A stretch of 30,065 nucleotides of DNA from a virus (IMGVR_UViG_3300021379_000754:1-30065); one strand, 5' to 3'; counted from the first letter of the stretch, positions 3,576-15,650 are shown. Made by a program: numbers and translations. Notes: generated from the sequence alone by a model not told the origin.

Positions 3576-4634
3576 ATGGCTACATACAATTTAAAATTTA
3601 ACAAAGACGACTCAGTTATCAGACATATTATTATTGGTCTCTTAGCAGATCTAAATAGTAAACTGAGTTTTTGGAGACAGATTAGCAACGATGAGCGTGT
3701 TGAGGTGGATGTACCTTTCTTCTACGCAGTCTCTGGTGATGAGAATTTCCTAAAAGATAATTTCTTATTCTCTAATGTCAATGGACTAGGCTGTGACCCT
3801 GATGGTGATTTCGCAGACGGTAACTATGACAAAGTGCCAAGAGGTATTGTTAATCTAACTTCTTTCGCAGTCGACCCTGGTAAACTGGTTAACAAGAGAA
3901 ACATGGGACAATACTCTATGATGAACGAACAAGGCTTAATGGAAGGCTTCGTCGCTGAGTTTGAGATGATACCATGTGTAATTGGCGTTGATATTGAAAT
4001 TCTAGTATCTAGTCAGTTAGATCTATTTAAAGTCACTGAGGCGATTGTGAAGAAAATGTACAAGGCCAATTTCTATCATGTAGATGCAGGTCATTTAGAA
4101 GACGGTACTTATAGAATCTCATCTGAGTATATGATGCCAGAAGATTATACACAAGAACGTCCAATCGAATATTCTTTCGACGATAAAGCAAATCATAAAG
4201 TTACATTCTCATTAGAGATCAACTCCTTTATTCCTTCATTCGACTTCGAAGAGGACACTTACAGAAAATTCACTAGGACTATGTATGCCAACGCTACTTG
4301 TGGCGACTATGGCGATCCAAATGGTTTCATGGATCCAGGTTTTATACCTAATGTTTATTATGATAGCTATGAGCCAGCTAAATGGGAATCAAACGGTACA
4401 GAGTGGATTAAAGTTGAAGATGGTTTAAGCTGCTCAGATCCAGCAGTTGCAGCCACTCTAGGTAATCTACAGAACACGGAGACTCAGATTAAGAGAGTGT
4501 CTAGACGTAGAAAACAGGCAAACAGAATGTTTACAATCGGGAACAGTAATTTAGTTGTTCCACCTAAGGATGATGTCAACTCTGCGCTACACGGAGACAA
4601 CTGGACAGTGAAGGCAAATTTGGATGATATATAA
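3576..4634 (+). CDS. 15: Tail terminator / sheath stabiliser, gp15-like
   Basis: This 352-residue protein probably caps the tail tube and sheath and forms the head-joining surface, as T4 gp15 (272 aa) does. The match is by pattern, not strong identity: an N-terminal helix ending in an RHII.GLLADL segment, a VDVPFFY strand where gp15 has RVPITY, a central GIVNLTSFAVDP stretch, then an IPCVIGVDIEILVSSQLD strand-helix and VTEAIVKKMY, like the YELSIFTRYEDDMFQIVEQIL block of gp15. The C-terminal ~100 residues are extra. I chose ATG 3576 (ATGGCT, as in other late genes) over a TTG at 3546 that lies inside the terminator. The gene is far from the gp14-like gene at 19780, unlike T4, where 14 and 15 are adjacent. 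Confidence 0.62.
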   Translation: MATYNLKFNKDDSVIRHIIIGLLADLNSKLSFWRQISNDERVEVDVPFFYAVSGDENFLKDNFLFSNVNGLGCDPDGDFADGNYDKVPRGIVNLTSFAVDPGKLVNKRNMGQYSMMNEQGLMEGFVAEFEMIPCVIGVDIEILVSSQLDLFKVTEAIVKKMYKANFYHVDAGHLEDGTYRISSEYMMPEDYTQERPIEYSFDDKANHKVTFSLEINSFIPSFDFEEDTYRKFTRTMYANATCGDYGDPNGFMDPGFIPNVYYDSYEPAKWESNGTEWIKVEDGLSCSDPAVAATLGNLQNTETQIKRVSRRRKQANRMFTIGNSNLVVPPKDDVNSALHGDNWTVKANLDDI

Positions 4635-4636
4635 TA
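4626..4636 (+). promoter_or_regulatory. Candidate late promoter box overlapping a stop codon
   Basis: GATATATAATA includes the last two codons and TAA stop of the gp15-like gene (GAT ATA TAA). TATATAA ends 25 bases before the ATG at 4660, the spacing seen at most other late genes here. Confidence 0.68.
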
Positions 4637-4659
4637 CAAGAAAACAAAAATAATTTGAA

Positions 4660-5850
4660 ATGACAAATTCAATAAACAAAGAAGTAGTATCTCCCGTTTT
4701 AGAGCAGGGACAAGGTTTCCTATTCCACGCTGCAGGTGCTAACTTTAAAATTACAGGTAATCATATTGAGAAGGTTAACGAGACCAATGATTTATTCAAC
4801 AGTCTAGTTGCTGCTAGTAAATCTTTAGAAATCACTAACGAAGGTATTTCTTTTCTATATGACTACAATAGAAAACAAGTTTTATCTAAAGTAGAAGAAG
4901 GTGCTACTGAAGCATTTGATACTCTAACAGAGCTAAACGAAAAGGAGACTTTTCTACAGGCTCAAGCTAAAGAGTTAAGATTATCAGGCTTAAAGGGACC
5001 AGCTCTAACTGAGGTAACTAAAGAATTAGTTGATACTCAAGCTAAAATCGAAGAGTCTAAATCAAACTCAATCGCTATCAACTTTAGATATAATAAAGAA
5101 TCAGGTAAATTCTTTGCAGGTAACATTGAAGTGACAATGGGCTCTGAGGAGAGATTATCAGAGAGATTCTTCAACGTAGGCTATATTAAATATCAGGATA
5201 AGGCTGTCTTAGAGATGTTCCAATTGGCTGCTGAAAACTTTGACGCATTTAAAGTATTAGATTTCGTAACTGAGTCTAAGTCTGGTCAAGTTACAGTTCT
5301 AGCAATGAGAGCTGAGAATAAAGCCTATGTCTACAGAATAAACGAAGATACTAAATTAGATAAATTCCAACAACTATTAGCAGACGCTGCTGTTGAGTAT
5401 GTCGCAACCGAGACTGGTGCAGACGTAACAGAACAGTTTTCCGACTTATTAGAGGCTGCCTCTAACATCACTAAAATTAAGCAAGAGAAGATTGAGCTTT
5501 ACAAAGAGATGTTATCATTCTTATACGATCAAAGAGGTAGACTAGCAGAGGCTGACAGAACATTACCAGATATTAAAGCTGCAGATAATTTAATTGAAAC
5601 AGAAATCAAGAAAATTAGAGAAGATTTAGCGGTTCTAGAAGAGGAAGAAGGTTTAGGTATTGAGGATGGTTATGTAAATGCATCTTTAAAAGGTGAGGTT
5701 GACGGTTTACCAGAAGACGCAGAGGTTAAAGTTGACGCTGTCGAATTTAATCAAGCAGGTAAGAATGATATTCTAACTGTATTTGTAGAAAACAAACCAT
5801 TCAGAGTAGAAAAGTACAAGATTAACATTTCACAAGAAGACAACGTATAA
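4660..5850 (+). CDS. Unrecognised coiled-coil protein, probable late virion or assembly protein
   Basis: This 396-residue protein is rich in Glu and Lys, with helical heptad-like stretches at about residues 80-135 and 255-325. A more beta-like region lies between them (SIAINFRYNKESGKFFAG onward) and another at the C-terminus. It has no cysteines, signal peptide or membrane segment, and I see no catalytic motif. It sits between a gp15-like gene and the late sigma gene, with its own late-type box and a strong terminator, so it is probably made late as its own transcript. A structural or assembly role is inferred from position and promoter only. Confidence 0.78.
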   Translation: MTNSINKEVVSPVLEQGQGFLFHAAGANFKITGNHIEKVNETNDLFNSLVAASKSLEITNEGISFLYDYNRKQVLSKVEEGATEAFDTLTELNEKETFLQAQAKELRLSGLKGPALTEVTKELVDTQAKIEESKSNSIAINFRYNKESGKFFAGNIEVTMGSEERLSERFFNVGYIKYQDKAVLEMFQLAAENFDAFKVLDFVTESKSGQVTVLAMRAENKAYVYRINEDTKLDKFQQLLADAAVEYVATETGADVTEQFSDLLEAASNITKIKQEKIELYKEMLSFLYDQRGRLAEADRTLPDIKAADNLIETEIKKIREDLAVLEEEEGLGIEDGYVNASLKGEVDGLPEDAEVKVDAVEFNQAGKNDILTVFVENKPFRVEKYKINISQEDNV

Positions 5851-5878
5851 ACGTTTTAAATTTTTATTTTAAATTTAG

Positions 5879-5911
5879 AAAAGCCCATTTCGAAACAAAT
5901 GGGCTTTTTTT
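5879..5911 (+). terminator. Rho-independent terminator upstream of gp55
   Basis: A 10-bp perfect stem AAGCCCATTT/AAATGGGCTT (5881-5890 and 5897-5906, extendable by flanking A/T pairs) with loop CGAAAC is followed by a run of eight T. It ends the late transcript before the sigma gene. Confidence 0.93.
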
Positions 5912-5916
5912 CATAT

Positions 5917-5931
5917 AATTGATAATCAATT
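5917..5931 (+). promoter_or_regulatory. Dyad-symmetric site before gp55 (possible operator)
   Basis: AATTGA-taa-TCAATT is a perfect 6-bp inverted repeat with a 3-base spacer, 11 bases before the gp55 start. Size and position fit a repressor operator or a weak mRNA hairpin at the start site. Function is inferred. Confidence 0.35.
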
Positions 5932-5942
5932 AGAAATTAACA

Positions 5943-6320
5943 GTGCCAAGAAAAAAGAACTATTTAAACAACCGCGATCTCTACGATCAGATCGTGCTCT
6001 CGTTAGAGGCTGACAAGCTGACGCCCGACGCAGAGAAAATGTTAATACTTCTGGCAGAGAGAGCAATAAATAGATTAGTTTATTTAAACCAAGACGATAA
6101 ACACGATTGTTTGCAATTTGCTATATTAGATCTGCTGAAGTATTGGAGAAATTTTAATCCAAAATACACCAATGCATTCGCCTATTTTACGGAGATAGCA
6201 AAACGTGGTTATGCTAAAGGGTGGAATAAACTACATCCTCAAAAGTATAAAAATACAATGTCCATGGATCGTATTAACACTAGAAATGGTGATGGTGATT
6301 CTGGTATGTTTAACATCTAA
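5943..6320 (+). CDS. 55: Late-transcription sigma factor, gp55-like
   Basis: This is the sigma factor that directs host RNA polymerase to TATA-type late promoters with the sliding clamp gp45. The 125 residues are shorter than T4 gp55 (185). Visible matches are YLNNRDLYDQI (T4 YVNNKELLQAI) at the N-terminus, and the conserved block WRNFNPKYTNAFAYFTEIAKRGYAKGW, equivalent to the T4 segment around [21 protein letters not shown], which acts like sigma region 2. The start is GTG, the only in-frame choice that keeps the YLNN block. The T4 C-terminal clamp-binding tail (DFLYE) is not recognisable; the chain ends GDGDSGMFNI, which may be a reduced equivalent. Gene 4 follows with a TAATG overlap. Confidence 0.88.
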   Translation: MPRKKNYLNNRDLYDQIVLSLEADKLTPDAEKMLILLAERAINRLVYLNQDDKHDCLQFAILDLLKYWRNFNPKYTNAFAYFTEIAKRGYAKGWNKLHPQKYKNTMSMDRINTRNGDGDSGMFNI

Positions 6321-7418: not shown

Positions 7419-9014
7419 ATGGCAGGATTTACAGAAAAACGAAACGGACCATTTAGTTCTAACTCAAGACCGTTCAGTCTCTCCAATGCATTGAAGACGC
7501 TGAGTTCTTTTGGTATGCGTTATGACGACCTAGTCCTACGTCAATCCCAAGCTATTGGTCCAATGGAAGACCAATTCGGCTATAGGGAGATGAATCCATT
7601 TGGTTTAGACAACGATGACATCTACGGTGCGTTTGCAGCACTATCGATGGGTGACATCAACATGAAGAAGAATGTACCTTTCTTCGACATTGACTATCCA
7701 GGTAAGAGAGATGAGTTGAGAAAGTTCTCAATGAACGATGAGGTTGAAGACATCCTAGACATTCTTTGTGATGAGGCAGTGGTATATGACGACAAGAACT
7801 TCTTCTGTCAGCCAGAAATTATGGGACTTGATGTCTCAGATCAGGTTAATAAAGACCTTAACAAATACTTTAGACAGATCTATCACTACTTTGGATTCAA
7901 CGGTGAACAATCAGCTTGGTATTTCTTTAGAAAATTCTTAGTAGATGGTTACTTATCATTTGAGATAATTTATTCCCCAGACCAAAAAGAGATTATCGGT
8001 TTTAAAGAGATCGATCCAATTACTCTAATGCCAGGTTACAATAAAGACGACGGTAAGAAAGTTTGGATTCAATATAAAGACGATCCGGTTAAGGAGAGAA
8101 TACTCTATGATTCTCAAATTATTTACATTTCATATTCTTCCCTTTCAACTGCTTCAAGAGTTAGTTACGTTGAGAGACTAGTAAGATCTTTTAACTTACT
8201 AAGAATTATGGAACACACCAGAGTGGTATGGGCAGTGACGAACGCTTCATTCAGAATGAAGTTTATTATCCCTGTTGGTGGTAAATCTAAAACAAGAGCA
8301 AAACAATCATTGGCACAGCTGATGAATAACTATAAAGAAGTCGTTGACTTTGACTTCGAGTCTGGTACACTGGCTACAGACGGTAAACCAATGTTACAGT
8401 TTAGTAAAGAGTATTGGTTACCTTCGAAAGACGGTGAGCAACCAGAAATTGAAACCCTTGGTGGTGAAGGTCCAGATCTATCGGACACTGAAGCACTTAA
8501 ATACTTCTCAGATAAATTAAAAGAGGTTTCAAAAATTCCTTACAACAGATTCTTATATGAAGATGACGGTGGCGACTACGCCCTAGCTGGTGATGGTATG
8601 GTAAGAGATGAGATTAAGTTTGGTAAATTTATCAAGCGTCTAAGATCAGTCTTCCAAGAGATACTAGTAAAACCACTCTACATTCAGATGTGTCTTAAGT
8701 ACCCAGAGTTTGTGGACGATCCACAGTTTAAAACTCAGGTAGCACTAAGATATAATGAAGAGAATGTCTTCGCAGAGTTAAAAGAGCAGGAAATCATGCA
8801 ATTAAGATTAGACTTTATCTCAAGCATGAGAGACTCTCTGATGACAACCAACCCAGAAACTATGGAAGAAGAATACTATTTCGACCAAGAATATCTAGTA
8901 ACTAAATACTTGAAATTAACTGACGACGAGATTAGAGCCAACAAAGCCTATAAGGCAAAAGAGGCTAAAGATAACGCAGAGGAGCCTGAACAGGAAGACC
9001 CAAACGCACTCTAA
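7419..9014 (+). CDS. 20: Portal vertex protein gp20
   Basis: This forms the dodecameric ring through which DNA is packaged and to which the neck attaches. Its 531 residues match T4 gp20 (524). Family features are the MNDEVEDILDILCDEAVVYD block, the FKEIDPITLMPG strand, KEVSKIPYNRFLYEDDGGDY and the C-terminal DEIKFGKFIKRLRSVFQEILVKPL helix, equivalent to the T4 DEIKFGKF segment. The extreme C-terminus is a long charged helix ending in an acidic tail. A late-type box precedes it, and gp67-like, gp21/22 and gp23 genes follow in T4 head-gene order. Confidence 0.95.
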   Translation: MAGFTEKRNGPFSSNSRPFSLSNALKTLSSFGMRYDDLVLRQSQAIGPMEDQFGYREMNPFGLDNDDIYGAFAALSMGDINMKKNVPFFDIDYPGKRDELRKFSMNDEVEDILDILCDEAVVYDDKNFFCQPEIMGLDVSDQVNKDLNKYFRQIYHYFGFNGEQSAWYFFRKFLVDGYLSFEIIYSPDQKEIIGFKEIDPITLMPGYNKDDGKKVWIQYKDDPVKERILYDSQIIYISYSSLSTASRVSYVERLVRSFNLLRIMEHTRVVWAVTNASFRMKFIIPVGGKSKTRAKQSLAQLMNNYKEVVDFDFESGTLATDGKPMLQFSKEYWLPSKDGEQPEIETLGGEGPDLSDTEALKYFSDKLKEVSKIPYNRFLYEDDGGDYALAGDGMVRDEIKFGKFIKRLRSVFQEILVKPLYIQMCLKYPEFVDDPQFKTQVALRYNEENVFAELKEQEIMQLRLDFISSMRDSLMTTNPETMEEEYYFDQEYLVTKYLKLTDDEIRANKAYKAKEAKDNAEEPEQEDPNAL

Positions 9015-9047: not shown

Positions 9048-9404
9048 ATGAAAAACGATTTTAAAATAATTAGAACCTTCGAGGAGTTCGTAGCAGAGGA
9101 CGCCATGAAGGCAGGCGAAGACTCTAAAATTTACGTCGAAGACCTAAAATTAGACTCTGGCGCTACAATTAAATCAGCTGAAATATTAGGAGTTATTACT
9201 TCTTCTAAAACAGAGGGCGAATTCAAAGAGTACTTCTATAGAGAGTATGGAGTGGACTCTTTCGCTGAAGGTGAGATGGACATACTAGTAGCCTATTATT
9301 TAGATAAATCGGCAGAAGACGCTGAACAAGAGAAGGAAGAAGAGAAAGAAGCTGGAGCAGATGCTGGTGGCGGAGAAGAAGAAGATCCTTTAGCAGGCGT
9401 TTAA
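9048..9404 (+). CDS. Small acidic prohead core protein (gp67/gp68 position) with capsid-targeting-like N-terminus
   Basis: This 118-residue acidic protein lies between portal and protease, where T4 has core genes 67 and 68. Near the N-terminus is RTFEEFVAEDAM, close to the T4 capsid-targeting sequence MKTYQEFIAEA that sends internal proteins into the prohead, where gp21 cleaves after Glu. The C-terminal third is almost entirely Glu/Asp/Ala/Gly and ends EEEDPLAGV. Length and composition fit a scaffold-core protein, but residue similarity to T4 gp67 is too low to prove orthology. Its late box is unusually close to the ATG. Confidence 0.72.
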   Translation: MKNDFKIIRTFEEFVAEDAMKAGEDSKIYVEDLKLDSGATIKSAEILGVITSSKTEGEFKEYFYREYGVDSFAEGEMDILVAYYLDKSAEDAEQEKEEEKEAGADAGGGEEEDPLAGV

Positions 9405-9434: not shown

Positions 9435-9445
9435 GATATATAATA
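9435..9445 (+). promoter_or_regulatory. Candidate late promoter box for the protease-scaffold gene
   Basis: GATATATAATA matches the best copies of the box exactly; TATATAA ends 22 bases before the ATG at 9466. Confidence 0.7.
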
Positions 9446-9465: not shown

Positions 9466-11961
9466 ATGGCAAACTTAAACGACTTATTGATCGTCGAAAT
9501 GTCTTCATCTCAATTGAGTGTAGCTCAATCTGAGAATAAAGATTACATATTAGAAGGTATCTTTGGAGAAATTGACTCCAAGAATAAAAATAATCGTATT
9601 TATACTGAAGACGAGTATGTACCTCAGATTCAGCAATTACAGGATAAGATTAAATCTTCCAAACTGTTAGGTGAATTAGATCACCCACAGCAGTTTGATG
9701 TATCTTTAAAGAATGTTTCACACATTATTGAAGAATTATACTACGATAAAGAAAACAAACAAGTAAAGGGTAAGATCAGACTTTTAGATACTGACGCTGG
9801 TAGACAAGCTAAAGCTCTTGTTGATGCAGGTGTACCTTTACAAATCTCTTCTAGAGCAGCTGGTGCTGTTGAATCTAACGGTAAAGTAAAAATCAAGCAA
9901 TTATTTACTTATGACCTAGTAGCAGACCCTGGCTTTGCTAACGCCGAATTAAAGAGAGTAAACGAGTCTTATGGCTTTGACAATGAGTCAGGTCTATGGA
10001 TCTACGAGATGAACGGCGAGGGCGCAGAAGCTCCTGAAGTAGCACAAGAAATTACAGAAACCAATATTGAAACAAATAATAATAAAAACATGGCAGAATT
10101 TGTAAAGGCTGAAGATTTCCATAAGTATTCTGAGTACTTAGCTAACGAAATTAAAGGCATTAAAGAGTCTATCGGAGCTACAAGCGAAGATAACACGTTA
10201 GAGAACGTAAAGTCTCATAACGATCATATCGTCGAGCGCGTTAATACTCTCTCAGAATACGTAGAGTATTTAGCCGGCAAATTAGACGAGTCAATCCAGT
10301 ATTCAGAGCACGTTGCTGAGAAAGCAGATCAAGGTATTTCTTACAGCGAATCTATTGCTGAAAAATTAGATCAAGGTATTCAATACTCTGAGCATTTAGC
10401 TGAGGCTGTTGGTAAAGTTAAAGACTTTGCTAACTATTTAGCTGAACAACACAATGAAGGTACTGAAACTTCTAAGAATCTTTTATCATACGTTGAGTAT
10501 TTAAAAGAGAACTTACAGTCAGTATCTGAATATGCTGAGTATATTGCTACTCAAATAAATGAAAACTTAGTAACTGAAGAAGAAGTTGAAGAAACTGAAG
10601 AAGTTGCTGAAGAAGAAGTTGAAGAAACAGAAGCTACTGAAGAAGGAGCACACGAAGAAGGTGAAGTTGAAGAAACTGAAGAAGTTGCTGAAGAAGACGA
10701 AGCTGGCGAAGGTGCTGAAGAAGTAGTTGAGGATGACGAGGTTGAAGAGCCTGGTGCTGAAAAAGAAGAAGCAGAAGGTGGCGAAGAAGCTGGCGATAAT
10801 TCAAAAGAAGGTGATGTAGAACCAGGTGATTCTGGTGAGCCTGCTGAAGAGTTAGAAGACGAAACTGTAAAATCTGACGCTGAAGTTGAAGATAAAGTTG
10901 AAGATGAGTCTGACGAATTAGAAGACGAATTAGTAGACGGCGAAGAAGGTGCTAAAGAAGTTGCTGACGAAGTTGATGAAACTGAAGAAGTTGAAGAGAC
11001 TGAAGAAGTTGCTGAAGAAGACGAAGCTGGCGAAGGTGCTGAAGAAGTAGTTGAAGACGAAGTTAGTGAAGAAGAAGCTGACGAAAACGCTGCTGCTGCA
11101 TTAGCTGCTATCGAATTAGCTGACAAGTTAAAAGATGAAGAAGCTGACGAATCTGAAGAAGTTGCTGAAGAAGACGAAGTTGAAGAAGGCAATGCATTTG
11201 GTGCTGCAAGAGCAGAAGCTATCGCTAAAGGTGAAGATAAATTCAAAGTAGGCGAAGAAGAGTATGATGTTGAAGGTGTTGACGCTGACGACAAAGAAAA
11301 TGCTGAAGAATACGCTGAAGAAGAAGGTATCAAAACTGAAAACGAAGAAGTTACTGAAGAAGACGAAGCTGGCGAAGGTGCTGAAGAGGTAGTTGATGAA
11401 GAAGAGCACGAAGAAGTTGAAGAATCTACTTTAGATACTTACAAAAAAGAAATTTCATCTAAGTTAGACGCTCTAGTTGAAGCTGCACAAGCTAAAGAAA
11501 ATGAAAATCCATCATTCTTTAAGATTGTATCTGGCTCAACTCAAGAGAAATATAACGCTCTAAACGAAGATGCTAAAACTGAAGTTAGACAAAGAGTTGC
11601 TAAAAGAGGTTTTATGACTGAAGGCGAAATCAACGCAATCGTTGAATCTGCTGAAGCAGTTGTAGAAGCTAGAACAGCTGAACCATTCTTTATCACTGCA
11701 GCTCCTGCAGAGTATAAAGAGAAGTTCGAAGCTCTAACTGAAGCAAAACAAAATCAAATCAAAGCTCAAGCTAAATACCATACTCTAAAAACTGAGTATC
11801 AAGTTAGAAACTTCTGGGAAACTAGAGATCTAAGAGAGGTAAAAGTTGACCTAGAAAAGTTAGCGGCAGTTAACGAATCAGCAGTTGCTGAGAAGAAGAA
11901 CGAGCCACTTTACGATGTGTCTAACTACGCTGAGAGCTTAAAGAAAAGATTTAAAAAGTAA
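9466..11961 (+). CDS. 21: Prohead protease fused to scaffold (gp21-gp22 fusion)
   Basis: Residues 1 to about 180 are a T4 gp21-type prohead protease: a GEIDSKNKNNRIY strand, LLGELDHP with probable catalytic His73, LQISSRAAG with probable nucleophile Ser128 or Ser129, and YDLVADPGFANAEL closing the domain. T4 gp21 is about 212 residues; this ORF has 831. After a Glu/Thr/Asn-rich linker, residues ~210-365 carry repeated helical units of SEYLA/EYVEYLA/YSEHLAE type. Residues ~370-655 are an extremely acidic repeat region. The last ~170 residues are a helical, less acidic domain ending SLKKRFKK, as a scaffold's capsid-binding end would. No separate gp22 gene lies before gp23, so protease and scaffold appear fused. 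An in-frame ATG at 10090 could give scaffold alone. Confidence 0.9.
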   Translation: MANLNDLLIVEMSSSQLSVAQSENKDYILEGIFGEIDSKNKNNRIYTEDEYVPQIQQLQDKIKSSKLLGELDHPQQFDVSLKNVSHIIEELYYDKENKQVKGKIRLLDTDAGRQAKALVDAGVPLQISSRAAGAVESNGKVKIKQLFTYDLVADPGFANAELKRVNESYGFDNESGLWIYEMNGEGAEAPEVAQEITETNIETNNNKNMAEFVKAEDFHKYSEYLANEIKGIKESIGATSEDNTLENVKSHNDHIVERVNTLSEYVEYLAGKLDESIQYSEHVAEKADQGISYSESIAEKLDQGIQYSEHLAEAVGKVKDFANYLAEQHNEGTETSKNLLSYVEYLKENLQSVSEYAEYIATQINENLVTEEEVEETEEVAEEEVEETEATEEGAHEEGEVEETEEVAEEDEAGEGAEEVVEDDEVEEPGAEKEEAEGGEEAGDNSKEGDVEPGDSGEPAEELEDETVKSDAEVEDKVEDESDELEDELVDGEEGAKEVADEVDETEEVEETEEVAEEDEAGEGAEEVVEDEVSEEEADENAAAALAAIELADKLKDEEADESEEVAEEDEVEEGNAFGAARAEAIAKGEDKFKVGEEEYDVEGVDADDKENAEEYAEEEGIKTENEEVTEEDEAGEGAEEVVDEEEHEEVEESTLDTYKKEISSKLDALVEAAQAKENENPSFFKIVSGSTQEKYNALNEDAKTEVRQRVAKRGFMTEGEINAIVESAEAVVEARTAEPFFITAAPAEYKEKFEALTEAKQNQIKAQAKYHTLKTEYQVRNFWETRDLREVKVDLEKLAAVNESAVAEKKNEPLYDVSNYAESLKKRFKK
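10090..11961 (+). CDS. Possible internal-start product: scaffold alone (gp22-like)
   Basis: ATG at 10090 is codon 209 of the fusion and starts MAEFVKAEDF, directly before the repeated helical scaffold region. The preceding bases (AATAATAATAAAAAC) look like the A-rich leaders before real starts in this window, and ATGGCA is the favoured start context here. Phage lambda makes its scaffold Nu3 from an in-frame internal start in protease gene C, so the arrangement has a precedent. Translation from this site is inferred; the product would be 623 residues. Confidence 0.42.
   Translation: MAEFVKAEDFHKYSEYLANEIKGIKESIGATSEDNTLENVKSHNDHIVERVNTLSEYVEYLAGKLDESIQYSEHVAEKADQGISYSESIAEKLDQGIQYSEHLAEAVGKVKDFANYLAEQHNEGTETSKNLLSYVEYLKENLQSVSEYAEYIATQINENLVTEEEVEETEEVAEEEVEETEATEEGAHEEGEVEETEEVAEEDEAGEGAEEVVEDDEVEEPGAEKEEAEGGEEAGDNSKEGDVEPGDSGEPAEELEDETVKSDAEVEDKVEDESDELEDELVDGEEGAKEVADEVDETEEVEETEEVAEEDEAGEGAEEVVEDEVSEEEADENAAAALAAIELADKLKDEEADESEEVAEEDEVEEGNAFGAARAEAIAKGEDKFKVGEEEYDVEGVDADDKENAEEYAEEEGIKTENEEVTEEDEAGEGAEEVVDEEEHEEVEESTLDTYKKEISSKLDALVEAAQAKENENPSFFKIVSGSTQEKYNALNEDAKTEVRQRVAKRGFMTEGEINAIVESAEAVVEARTAEPFFITAAPAEYKEKFEALTEAKQNQIKAQAKYHTLKTEYQVRNFWETRDLREVKVDLEKLAAVNESAVAEKKNEPLYDVSNYAESLKKRFKK
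10663..11396 (+). repeat. Direct repeats in the acidic scaffold region
   Basis: A 68-bp unit at 10663-10730 recurs at 10987-11054 with one mismatch, and a 53-bp part of it recurs at 11344-11396 with two mismatches. They encode the peptide core TEEVAEEDEAGEGAEEVV. All copies keep the reading frame, so the acidic region probably grew by in-frame duplication. Shorter GAAGAAGTTG-type repeats lie between them. Confidence 0.92.
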
Positions 11962-11962
11962 A

Positions 11963-11974
11963 GAATATATAATT
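11963..11974 (+). promoter_or_regulatory. Candidate late promoter box for the capsid gene
   Basis: GAATATATAATT begins just after the stop of the fusion gene. TATATAA ends 96 bases before the capsid ATG, giving a much longer leader than at other late genes. Confidence 0.58.
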
Positions 11975-12068: not shown

Positions 12069-13436
12069 ATGGCAAATTTAATTAACGAAGCTGAAATCAG
12101 AAACACATGGTCTCCAATCATTGAAGAGGCTACTGGTATCAACGAAGCTTCAAAGCTAGCTTGGATGTCGGAATACTGCCACAATCACAAGCTTTATGAA
12201 GATGCAAACATCATGTCTTTAGGGACTGCTGGTAACATCTTTGGTATGGGCCCTACTAGCCTTCCATCAGCAACTTCTCAAGGTGCTGCAAATGGTGCTC
12301 AAGGCTCAGGTGATAAAGCTCCAACTTTATTACCATTAGCAATGCAAGTTGCTGCACAAACAATTGGTTTAGACCTAGTACCTGTTGTTCCTATGGCTGG
12401 TCCTATGGGATTACTATCTTACCTAGACTTCGTATACGAAGGTGGTAAAGTTGCTGGTTCTGAAACTCCAACTTACATCAAGTATGGTGACGAAAATTCT
12501 GATAAAGTAGGTAACGACGTAAGAGTTGGTTTCTCAAGAATCGACGGTAAAGCGATCATCAGAATCGTTGACGCACTAGATGCTAACGGTGGTGAAACTG
12601 TAATCACTGACAGATATGCTGGTGCTGAATTAGTTGCTGCACTAGAAGACCACATTCCTGGTTTCTCTGGTTCTAACGATGCTGGCGATCCTTTCTCAAG
12701 AGGAGCTGGTGAGCAAACTCCAGACAAAGTAATGGGCTTAAGCTTATTCTCTAAATCAGTTGAAGCTAAGACTTTCCAAGTTGCAGCTGCAGTTACTAGA
12801 GAGCAAGTACAAGACCTTAAACAATTCGGTGTTGACGCTGTTGCTCAAGTAGAAGCAGTTTTAACTAACGAATTAACTCAGTCTATCAACAACCACATCT
12901 TATCTTCGATGAGAGCATTAGCTGGTGACGGTATCGCTGCATTAGATCACACTGGTAATTTATCTGGTGGTGAGACTAAAGCTGACAGACACAGAGAGAT
13001 CTTAACTTCAATCCTTGCTGCTGCGAACTTAATCGCACAAAGAGGTAGAAGAGGTGCAGGTAACTTTGCTGTTGTAGGTGGTGCAATTGCATCTGCTCTA
13101 CAATCTGTTGCAGGTTTCGTAGCATACCCAATGGCTAACACTGTTAACCAAGTTGCAGGTTCAATCTATCCTTTAGGTTCTGTAGCAGGTATCAACATCT
13201 ATACTGATCCATCAATCGCATTCACATCAACTGAAGTATTAGTTGGTAGAAAAGGTGATGGTAACGGTCCAGGTCTTGTATTCATGCCTTACTTAATGGC
13301 TGAATCAGTACAAGCTATCGTTGAAGGTACAATGGCTCCAAAAGTAGCTGTTAAATCTAGATACGCATTAGTTGAAGCTGGTTTCCACGCGAAAACTCAA
13401 TATGAGTCATTCAGCGTAAACGGTTTCGCACTATAA
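12069..13436 (+). CDS. 23: Major capsid protein gp23
   Basis: This HK97-fold subunit builds the head. The 455 residues are shorter than T4 gp23 (521). Matches include the N-terminal INEAEIRNTWSPIIEE (T4 KAELLNKWKPLLE), the central VEAKTFQVAAAVTREQVQDLKQ segment (T4 IEAKSRQLKAAYSIELAQDL), GRRGAGNFAVVGGAIASAL (T4 GRGEGNFIIASRNVVNVL), YPLGSVAGINIYTDP, and a C-terminal LVFMPYLMAESVQA...APKVAVKSRYALV block. As in T4, the N-terminal segment is probably removed by the protease encoded just upstream, but I cannot place the site. It stands between its own late box and a strong terminator, suiting high expression. Confidence 0.95.
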   Translation: MANLINEAEIRNTWSPIIEEATGINEASKLAWMSEYCHNHKLYEDANIMSLGTAGNIFGMGPTSLPSATSQGAANGAQGSGDKAPTLLPLAMQVAAQTIGLDLVPVVPMAGPMGLLSYLDFVYEGGKVAGSETPTYIKYGDENSDKVGNDVRVGFSRIDGKAIIRIVDALDANGGETVITDRYAGAELVAALEDHIPGFSGSNDAGDPFSRGAGEQTPDKVMGLSLFSKSVEAKTFQVAAAVTREQVQDLKQFGVDAVAQVEAVLTNELTQSINNHILSSMRALAGDGIAALDHTGNLSGGETKADRHREILTSILAAANLIAQRGRRGAGNFAVVGGAIASALQSVAGFVAYPMANTVNQVAGSIYPLGSVAGINIYTDPSIAFTSTEVLVGRKGDGNGPGLVFMPYLMAESVQAIVEGTMAPKVAVKSRYALVEAGFHAKTQYESFSVNGFAL

Positions 13437-13461
13437 TCTATAGATTTATAGAAACTATATT

Positions 13462-13489
13462 AAAAGGCCCTCATCCGAGGGCCTTTTTT
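13462..13489 (+). terminator. Rho-independent terminator after the capsid gene
   Basis: An 11-bp perfect stem, AAAAGGCCCTC (13462-13472) with GAGGGCCTTTT (13477-13487), closes a 4-base loop ATCC and is followed by T residues. Confidence 0.95.
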
Positions 13490-13498
13490 ATTTGGTAA

Positions 13499-13512
13499 AA
13501 TTACCGGTAATT
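13499..13512. promoter_or_regulatory. Perfect 14-bp palindrome (possible operator)
   Basis: AATTACCGGTAATT is perfectly self-complementary and lies between the capsid terminator and the next late box (13518). It overlaps a second dyad, GGTAA-aa-TTACC (13494-13505). The position suits a protein-binding site controlling the 13554 gene. Confidence 0.38.
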
Positions 13513-13517
13513 AACTA

Positions 13518-13528
13518 GATATATAAAC
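13518..13528 (+). promoter_or_regulatory. Candidate late promoter box for the 13554 gene
   Basis: GATATATAAAC; TATATAA ends 27 bases before the ATG at 13554. Confidence 0.65.
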
Positions 13529-13553
13529 TATAGTTACAAACATAAAAATCGAT

Positions 13554-15650
13554 ATGATTAATACTAACAAAGTCAAATTATTCGAAGAGTTTGCTGCTGG
13601 TGAAATTTCTAATCCTGAACAAAACGTAACACCAGTAGGTAATGTAGACACAGCATCTACTATTGCAGTAGATAAAACATCTATGTCTGGAGAGCAGGTT
13701 AGAGCAGAAATCATTAAGGATGTAGATGCTATTCTAACCAATCTAGAAACATTATCAAAGCGAATTACAGAGAGCGTCGACAAAGATTTTTTTTTTGAAG
13801 GACCAGTAAACGAGTCCCTTGGCGGAATTATTGATTTCGTAAAGAAACAGGCCAACTGGGCAAAGGGGATGGCACTGATTAATGGAGACTGGAAGAAACT
13901 TAAGGAAGAAGGCAACGCTGATATTATTGCAGCAAAAGAACACGACGCTATTAAAAAGATCGATGCACAGATCGATAAGATGAAGCGCGCTAGGGACGAG
14001 GCTAAGGGTCCTAAAGCAGACGCCATCAAGCAGAAGGCAATCGCGACAATTGCAAAATTAAAAGACAATAAGGCAGACATTGACTCTAAATTTGAAGAGG
14101 CAAAAGAGGCTGCACGTCAAGCTCTAGAAGAAGTTGAAGAGAAGATAAAGAAGTATGAGGATAATATGCCTGGAGGCACTGAAGGAGAGCTTTATACTAA
14201 TACTAAGAGAAAGATCGGTAATGGTATTAAAATGGATGGTCTTAAAGAAAAGGCCCGCGTTGCTAAAGAGAAGGGTAAAGCCGACGCTGCAAAAGAGGCT
14301 GCCGATGAGTTAAAGAAAATTGGTGCTAGATCTAAAGAGACTGAGGAAGCTTTAAAAGAACTTTCAGCAGATGTCGATCCAAAACTAGAAGAGCAGATTA
14401 AGAAAATTCAAAAAGAGATTGACAGAGAGAAAGATGAAGATCTTGCTAAACTTCAAGCTGAGATAAAATCACAGAAAGACAAATTATCTAAGGGAGAGCT
14501 AGAAGGCGAAGAAAAAGTTAAAGCCGAAGCGCAGCTAGAAAAACTAAAAGATCAAGAAGATAAAACTCTAGAAGGTATTTACTATCTAGAAGATTATCTA
14601 GAAGAGTTAAAAGCTCAAAGAGCTGCACTGAAAGGTGAAGACTATGATAAAGCAGAGTCTAAAGTAGGTAGCACTGAAGACGGTGGAAATAAAGAGAAAG
14701 AAGGTCTAGGTTTAATGGATGAACCTAAGAAAGCCGGTAGAAAACCTGATAGTGAAACTGTACAGAAGGCAAAAGCTGCAGTAAAACAGGCCAAAGCAGA
14801 GCTTAAGAACGACCAAGAAGAATTAGCTGAAATACCTCAAGAAATTAAAGACACTGAGGAAGATCTTAAAAAAGCAAAAGACGCCGCGGCAACTGCTAAC
14901 CCACCCAACGCAGAAGAGCTTAAGAAAATGGATGATAAGATTGAAAAAGCAGAAAAAAATCTGAAAGAGCTAAAGAAAAATAAAGATGCTGATCCTAAAA
15001 AGGTTAAATTTGCTGAGCAAAACCTTTTGGCAAATAAAATGCAAAAAGAAAAAGCTTTAGGTGAAACTAAAAAAGCTGATGAGTTACAAAAAGAAATAGA
15101 TAAAATTGGTAAGGAATTAGGTCAGATGGCAGCTGCTGCAACGAATAAATCAGCAGAAGATACGATAGCAGATATAAAAAAGTCCAATGCAGATAATTTG
15201 AAAAAGCAAACAAAGAAGATGAAGGATCTAATTTCAAATCCTAAAAAGAAGGAGAAAGAAGAAGTCGAAGAGGCTAAATCTTCTGACCAAGAAGCTGCAG
15301 CAAAAGTTGCAAAAGATGATATTAAAGAGCTGGAAAAGGAAATTAAAGCACTTAAAGGTAGAGAGAAGGAATTAAAAGACGATGAAATTCCACAAGATCA
15401 AACTAATCTAAAAGATGCAGAAGCAGAATTAAAAGCAGCTCAGTCAAAAGATAAAAAAGACAGATCTGAAATGGGAGGCACTGTCGATGACATCAAGAAA
15501 AGACAAAAAGACAAGTTGAAGTCTACAAAAGAATCTAAAGAATTAACATGGGAGTCTTTAAAAGAAGACCTAGGGTTAAATCAGAAAGTTGAGAAAGTAC
15601 ATGAGTCCTTCTCAATCGCTGATAAAATGAGATTAATTCTAAAGAGATAA
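13554..15650 (+). CDS. Large coiled-coil protein, probable internal head protein
   Basis: This 698-residue protein is dominated by Lys, Glu, Ala and Asp in long heptad-like helices from about residue 125 to 650, with no cysteine. The N-terminus, VKLFEEFAAGE, matches the pattern of the T4 capsid-targeting sequence (YQEFIAEA) and resembles the N-terminus of the 9048 core protein. With its place right after the capsid gene and its late-type box, this suggests a protein carried into the prohead, either core/scaffold or packaged internal protein. A run of ten T (13787-13796) encodes Phe-Phe-Phe and is slippage-prone, but the frame continues intact. Function is inferred; a cytoplasmic assembly factor is the alternative. 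Confidence 0.82.
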   Translation: MINTNKVKLFEEFAAGEISNPEQNVTPVGNVDTASTIAVDKTSMSGEQVRAEIIKDVDAILTNLETLSKRITESVDKDFFFEGPVNESLGGIIDFVKKQANWAKGMALINGDWKKLKEEGNADIIAAKEHDAIKKIDAQIDKMKRARDEAKGPKADAIKQKAIATIAKLKDNKADIDSKFEEAKEAARQALEEVEEKIKKYEDNMPGGTEGELYTNTKRKIGNGIKMDGLKEKARVAKEKGKADAAKEAADELKKIGARSKETEEALKELSADVDPKLEEQIKKIQKEIDREKDEDLAKLQAEIKSQKDKLSKGELEGEEKVKAEAQLEKLKDQEDKTLEGIYYLEDYLEELKAQRAALKGEDYDKAESKVGSTEDGGNKEKEGLGLMDEPKKAGRKPDSETVQKAKAAVKQAKAELKNDQEELAEIPQEIKDTEEDLKKAKDAAATANPPNAEELKKMDDKIEKAEKNLKELKKNKDADPKKVKFAEQNLLANKMQKEKALGETKKADELQKEIDKIGKELGQMAAAATNKSAEDTIADIKKSNADNLKKQTKKMKDLISNPKKKEKEEVEEAKSSDQEAAAKVAKDDIKELEKEIKALKGREKELKDDEIPQDQTNLKDAEAELKAAQSKDKKDRSEMGGTVDDIKKRQKDKLKSTKESKELTWESLKEDLGLNQKVEKVHESFSIADKMRLILKR

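Follow-up and report, generated by a model that had tools for sequence, protein, structure and literature searches.

A fused prohead protease-scaffold gene with a conserved, putative internal start in the T4-like head module of marine and huge phages

The head-gene region and the fused gene

The window (the whole stretch of viral DNA analysed here, 30,065 nucleotides) carries a head module in which the portal gene, a 118-aa core-like ORF, a fused gene and gp23 follow one another, corresponding to the T4 order 20-(67/68)-[21+22]-23 (Table 1). The fused gene is a single, unbroken frame of 831 codons (831 aa), and no further forward ORF lies between its end at 11961 and the start of gp23 at 12069; that is, no separate gp22 gene precedes gp23, as originally predicted. 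The 118-aa ORF was present at 80 of 80 loci of the window's clade and had no significant family match in Pfam or PHROG. A 698-aa, Lys/Glu-rich coiled-coil ORF located 3' of gp23 (13554-15650) was considered as the true scaffold and rejected, since it was found at 27 of 43 window-clade loci and at none of the nine loci of the other clades (G2/G3, see below) that reach that far; it is possibly a clade-specific internal head protein. The N-termini of the 118-aa ORF (MKNDFKIIRTFEEFVAED) and of the 698-aa ORF (MINTNKVKLFEEFAAGE) both resemble the T4 capsid-targeting sequence, which suggests that the two products are core or internal head proteins.

Table 1. Features of the head-gene region discussed in the text (positions are those of the window)
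Feature	Position	Strand	Basis or remark
Portal protein (gp20)	7419..9014	+	PF07230, E 2e-72
118-aa acidic ORF, possible core protein	9048..9404	+	gp67/gp68 position
ATATATAAT, candidate late-promoter element of the fused gene	9436..9444	+	
Fused prohead protease-scaffold gene	9466..11961	+	intact ORF; essentially all complete homologues fused; T4 21+22 slot
S77 / T4 gp21-type protease domain	9466..9990	+	aa 1-175; PF03420, 5jbl, residue alignment
Catalytic residues	His73 codon 9682-9684; Ser128 codon 9847-9849	+	aligned to T4-type gp21
Variable linker	9991..10089	+	contains IYE (10000-10008)
A-rich leader (putative translation initiation region)	10072..10089	+	synonymous constraint, A/T content, weak RNA structure
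Nested scaffold reading frame	10090..11961	+	623 aa, from codon 209; putative product
Helical scaffold region	10108..10569	+	aa 215-368; repeated Y-x-E-(Y/H)-(L/I/V)-A-E motifs
Acidic low-complexity region, variable length	10570..11427	+	about aa 369-654; sequence
C-terminal helical domain	11428..11958	+	aa 655-831; pLDDT 75
ATATATAAT, candidate late-promoter element of the capsid gene	11965..11973	+	no other copy between 9436 and this one (+)
Major capsid protein (gp23)	12069..13436	+	PF07068, E 4e-46

The N-terminal ~175 aa of the fused protein match Peptidase_S77 (PF03420; E 4e-12, 46.6 bits against a gathering score of 27), PHROG 207 ("head maturation protease") and, by sequence, the T4 gp21 structure 5jbl (phmmer E 2.5e-4). 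The same structure was the best fold match of the protease model (Foldseek E 2.5e-8, TM 0.69 on the T4 chain), and the varicella-zoster protease was a weak fifth. Across an alignment of 53 sequences neither His73 nor Ser128 varies, and the two correspond to residues 85 and 140 in a T4-type gp21; the original prediction had thus named the right histidine, and of the two serines it offered (Ser128/129) the catalytic one is Ser128, not Ser129. By family score, catalytic residues and modelled fold, this part belongs to the S77 prohead protease family.

Downstream of the protease, the frame continues through a linker into a region that sequence and models predict to be helical, acidic and scaffold-like, as had been proposed. 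The linker contains a conserved motif of a hydrophobic, an aromatic and an acidic residue (IYE/FYE in 110 of 142 homologues), and AlphaFold places a strand over it (177-181). This motif may mark either a site of cleavage during maturation or the final strand of the protease domain; some homologues have D in place of E, and the model shows a strand there. The helices of residues 215-368 are predicted at low pLDDT, and the C-terminal helical domain is common to the fused proteins of the huge phages and of phages PTm1 and pT24. Both the slot adjoining gp23 and the helical/acidic make-up match what would be expected of gp22, and it is from this position and make-up that a scaffold role is proposed for the C-terminal part. 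At the level of family membership, the scaffold part (10090-11958) gave no match to PF25623 (T4_CASP), and its profile comparison with gp22 was not significant (hhalign 0.2%); by eye, a short segment and the tail resemble gp22. Hence, our proposal is that this part is gp22-like in how it works, not that it belongs to the gp22 family.

A gp22 homologue elsewhere in the genome, which the original prediction had named as evidence against its reading, was not found. Specifically, PF25623 had no match in the window (a 30-kb genome fragment) or in the longer contigs of its relatives, in five huge-phage genomes of 462-735 kb, or in phages PTm1, pT24, PAU, Paride and Lak, while the same search recovered gp22 above the cut-off in five T4-type genomes and below the cut-off in a sixth. 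On the basis of this PF25623 search and its controls, we reject the idea that gp22 has been displaced to another site.

Spread of the fusion among relatives

We collected ~240 homologues from viral contigs and from the huge-phage records LR756500-504 and LR745206, and assigned them to three groups. G1 is the marine clade to which the window belongs, G2 is an intermediate group that includes a 462-kb phage, and G3 is a mahaphage-type clade that includes phages of 634-735 kb. The fusion is found in essentially all complete homologues of this set, including those of the 462-735 kb huge phages; over all loci there were 221 complete ORFs, and homologue lengths were mostly 567-834 aa. Short ORFs were limited to PAU and Paride, whose genes are separate, to one reading of Lak (which requires a recoded stop) and to two early stops. 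The homologues L087 and L099 end early (453 and 346 aa, respectively), within the scaffold part and past the internal Met, and may reflect sequencing errors or real truncations. With the fusion seen again in ~240 contigs and in five large genomes, we reject an assembly or frame artefact, and the original reading of one intact 831-residue protease-scaffold ORF is confirmed. No close relative was found in which the gene is split at the internal Met (a "Rosetta" case).

The protease tree splits into two clades (100/99 each): one holds all fused proteins together with PAU, the other the T4-type proteases encoded by separate genes. G1-G3 group together (94/90); the order of pT24, PAU and PTm1 is unsure because of long branches. 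The proteases of PAU, Paride, RAS14 and XacN1 are separate as well, and lie in other branches. As had been stated for T4, the T4-type phages keep 21 and 22 apart: in the same slot, Mosigvirus F31, P-SSM2, Campylobacter CP39, Sinorhizobium phiM19, Vibrio D482 and Methylophilales Melnitz all have a protease gene of ~210-222 aa followed by a separate scaffold gene or ORF of 248-392 aa. Judged from these sequences, the fusion is an old, clade-wide trait and not the oddity of one phage.

The fusion is spread more widely than the internal start described below. PTm1 and pT24 (cultured Tenacibaculum phages; L009 and L260) are fused without a Met at the linker, and fusion alone can apparently suffice. 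These two and Lak have long fused "prohead protease" ORFs (589, 527 and ~584 aa, respectively), and ORF151 of Chryseobacterium phage MA9V-1, also a "prohead protease", is a fused ORF of 4044 nt (PMC10537231). All of them share the protease with the window's gene, and PTm1 and pT24 share the C-terminal domain as well; such fused proteins sit in databases as "prohead protease", i.e., under a plain protease/scaffold annotation. Two side observations concern individual loci. The PTm1 gene probably begins 75 nt upstream of its annotated start (locus 6082), and in the 462-kb phage (L002) the head-gene region is interrupted by two similar large ORFs (4427-6040 and 12667-14466) that look like homing endonucleases.

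The internal ATG and its leader

The ATG at 10090 (codon 209) is in frame with the protease and is preceded by the leader AAACAAATAATAATAAAAAC. It shares its ATGGC context with the real starts at 2712, 7419, 9466, 12069, 19780, 24353 and 27236, so that both the A-rich leader and the start-like context originally described are borne out. Among 142 non-redundant homologues, 141 have a Met at most 17 residues before the anchor Val in the N-terminal motif of the scaffold (distance 3 to 17 residues, most often 4 or 6); averaged over these proteins, a Met stands among the 8 preceding residues at only ~10% of positions. The linker itself varies in length and sequence across these homologues and the Met stays; that is, the ATG and its leader are kept across the ~240 relatives, more so than the linker, and the lack of conservation that would have spoken against an internal start was not observed. 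The sole exception among the 142 is PTm1, and pT24, viewed separately, also lacks the Met. Of the two traits that the original prediction had asked about, the fusion and the Met209 context, these two phages keep the fusion only. Lak has Mets near the linker and no recognisable motif, in a linker that is hard to align.

Several features of the nucleotide sequence resemble those of gene starts. The 18 nt upstream of the internal ATG are 59% A and 82% A+T, compared with 61% and 85% at the genes' own starts and 38% and 66% at other in-frame ATGs. All 36 non-redundant G1 sequences are identical at the final two codons of the leader, at the ATG and at the Glu codon two positions later, and there are two leader peptide types (TNNNNKN and EIKENKN) of equal A-rich character. 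Synonymous divergence of the leader falls to 0.02 of expectation in G1, the lowest window in codons 1-390, and to 0.41 in G2, again the lowest there, while in G3 the minimum is not at the ATG and divergence is low around -13 codons; these ratios carry no formal probability because pairs of related sequences were counted. All three clades show a surplus of A at third codon positions (95 vs. 57.8, 197 vs. 127.5 and 137 vs. 82.3). Folding energy over 50 nt is -2.1 kcal/mol at the internal ATG, close to that of gene starts (-1.8) and unlike the rest of the gene (-6.2); in G1 and G2 the dip coincides with the ATG or lies just before it, and in G3 it surrounds the ATG. In Flavobacterium, A at positions -3, -6, -12 and -13, together with low structure, promotes initiation without a Shine-Dalgarno (SD) sequence (PMC6847099), and the window's internal ATG has A at -3, -6 and -12.

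When scored with a start matrix built from neighbouring genes, the internal ATG exceeds most ATGs of the gene but falls short of typical real starts: its mean percentile is 21, 28 and 14 for the three clades, and it comes first in only 28 of 139 genes. The lower score fits a weaker start, or a leader in which no in-frame stop codons are allowed, and is in part due to the latter. As far as sequence comparison can tell, a conserved in-frame start with initiation signals is present at the border of the two domains.

From the hosts of relatives (Prevotella for Lak, Tenacibaculum for PTm1 and pT24) and from the SD-less, A-rich starts, we infer a Bacteroidota host for the window's phage. Genes for bS21 were seen in three relatives (L261-L263; LR756501 at 542936 and the contigs of L054 and L064) and not in the 30-kb window. 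The presence of bS21 near head genes is known in Bacteroidota phages (PMC9723584), and the protein could be relevant to SD-independent initiation.

Proposed use of the internal start, alternatives and known systems

We consider it very likely, based on the sequence comparisons above, that the locus is a nested protease/scaffold gene comparable to lambda C/Nu3 or herpesvirus UL26/UL26.5, in which the scaffold is also translated separately. Under this hypothesis, translation from 9466 would give the 831-aa protease-scaffold fusion and translation from 10090 would give the 623-aa scaffold alone from the same mRNA, with initiation at 10090 relying on an A-rich, unstructured, SD-independent region of the kind found in Bacteroidota. 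The free scaffold would be in excess, and the fusion, having the scaffold part in common with it, would co-assemble as a minor component into a core consisting mostly of free scaffold; its small share would in turn control the number of proteases inside the prohead. After closure of the shell, the protease would cleave the scaffold and the propeptides of the capsid proteins. We infer the use of the internal start, the scaffold excess, the role of the C-terminal part as scaffold, and autocleavage. The proposal in the original prediction that a nested-gene solution has arisen in a T4-like head module is thus supported by the conserved internal start and the absence of gp22, with both products being putative.

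Alternatively, the gene might make a single polypeptide, as P2 gpO does, with protease and scaffold at 1:1, the whole fusion serving as scaffold and the Met being incidental. The strongest argument for this alternative is that PTm1 and pT24 are fused, with a related C-terminal domain and no linker Met, and there is a precedent for a one-gene protease/scaffold in P2 (PMC8508860). However, it leaves unexplained why 141 of 142 homologues have a Met in an otherwise variable linker, as well as the synonymous constraint, the start-like A/T content and the weak structure. A pure 1:1 fusion would also be unlike T4, in which the prohead holds ~580 copies of gp22 and only ~55-100 of gp21 (PMC9958956, PMC5694885). 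We regard the single polypeptide as unlikely.

A second alternative is that the scaffold alone is made from a separate mRNA, driven by an internal promoter as for UL26.5, with the ATG starting that frame. Conservation of the ATG and its leader would be equally expected in this case, herpesviruses offer a precedent of overlapping genes (PMC12474303), and the low synonymous divergence around -13 codons in the mahaphage-type clade could be read in the same way. The promoter-like element of the window bears on this alternative. ATATATAAT occurs as seven exact copies in the window, all on the forward strand, at or just past gene ends and before structural genes, with no exact copy on the reverse strand; this placement suggests that it is the phage late promoter. 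The broader form ATATATAA(T/A), with a G before it in nearly all cases, is found on the forward strand at 2676, 4627, 7391, 9037, 9436, 11965, 13519, 19742, 24315, 27207 and 29364, also at or just past gene ends and ahead of forward-strand structural genes; for comparison, the T4 late promoter element is TATAAATA. On the forward strand inside the fused gene, ATATATAAT is absent from the window and from 25 of 25 window-clade genes, which counts against an internal promoter of the ATATATAAT type only, and three copies occur within genes of G2/G3. If ATATATAAT is indeed the late promoter, both products would come from one mRNA. We find an internal promoter very unlikely.

It is also highly improbable, in our assessment, that the Met is conserved for the sake of the protein, as a cleavage site used in maturation or as the opening turn of the scaffold domain. 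The MAE/MEE of the window's clade loosely fits a hydrophobic-X-Glu pattern, and N(E/D)LFN before the Met is also conserved in the mahaphage-type clade. Yet, the surroundings of the Met differ by clade (MAE, MEE, MEN, MDK, MNK, MSE), its distance to the domain ranges from 3 to 17 residues, and a protein function would leave unexplained the constraint that two clades show at synonymous positions. Finally, a -1 frameshift or slippage site in the A-rich stretch that releases the protease alone is barely credible: A AAA AAN lies near the ATG in 9 of 25 and 23 of 56 homologues of two clades and the shifted frames soon reach stops, but the motif occurs in only 1 of 58 homologues of the third clade, the window's heptamer (T AAA AAC) is not a canonical slippery site, and the conservation of the Met would be left unexplained.

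The nested arrangement favored here shares elements with several known systems and is identical to none of them. T4 21/22 has the same protease family, fold, catalytic residues and position (between the portal/core genes and gp23), but as two separate genes; here a single frame contains a nested start, and there is no scaffold of the PF25623 family. Lambda C/Nu3 has the scaffold in frame within the 3' part of the protease gene and an internal start, as here, but its protease is of an unrelated family and its host uses SD sites, in contrast to the A-rich, SD-less leader of the present gene. P2 gpO joins protease and scaffold in one product, also with an unrelated protease, and we know of no nested scaffold start in P2. 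Lambda C/Nu3 and P2 gpO each combine protease and scaffold in a single gene (PMC8508860). The herpesvirus UL26/UL26.5 pair (assemblin/pre-VP22a) likewise has an N-terminal protease and a C-terminal scaffold, and the scaffold made separately from UL26.5 is identical to the C-terminal part of UL26 (PMC12474303); the protease-derived form amounts to ~10% of the scaffold, with the remainder coming from UL26.5 (PMC12474303). UL26 and UL26.5 are separate overlapping genes, however, whereas the evidence here favors one transcript with two translation starts.

To our knowledge, based on the open-licence literature, a nested scaffold in the T4/S77 lineage has not been reported. We think it probable that, in a Bacteroidota-type phage clade that includes the largest phages, one SD-less nested gene replaces 21 and 22 as the S77 counterpart of UL26/UL26.5, which would explain the missing gp22. 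This model provides a testable answer to how giant phages without a recognizable gp22 build the head core and dose the protease. Under the same model, the T4 (S77) lineage would join lambda and the herpesviruses as users of nested protease/scaffold genes, suggesting convergent or ancient use of one way to control stoichiometry. It would also mean that gene callers have overlooked a conserved second, putative product in hundreds of genomes, and the relatives collected here may offer naturally occurring examples of SD-independent internal initiation in Bacteroidota phages.
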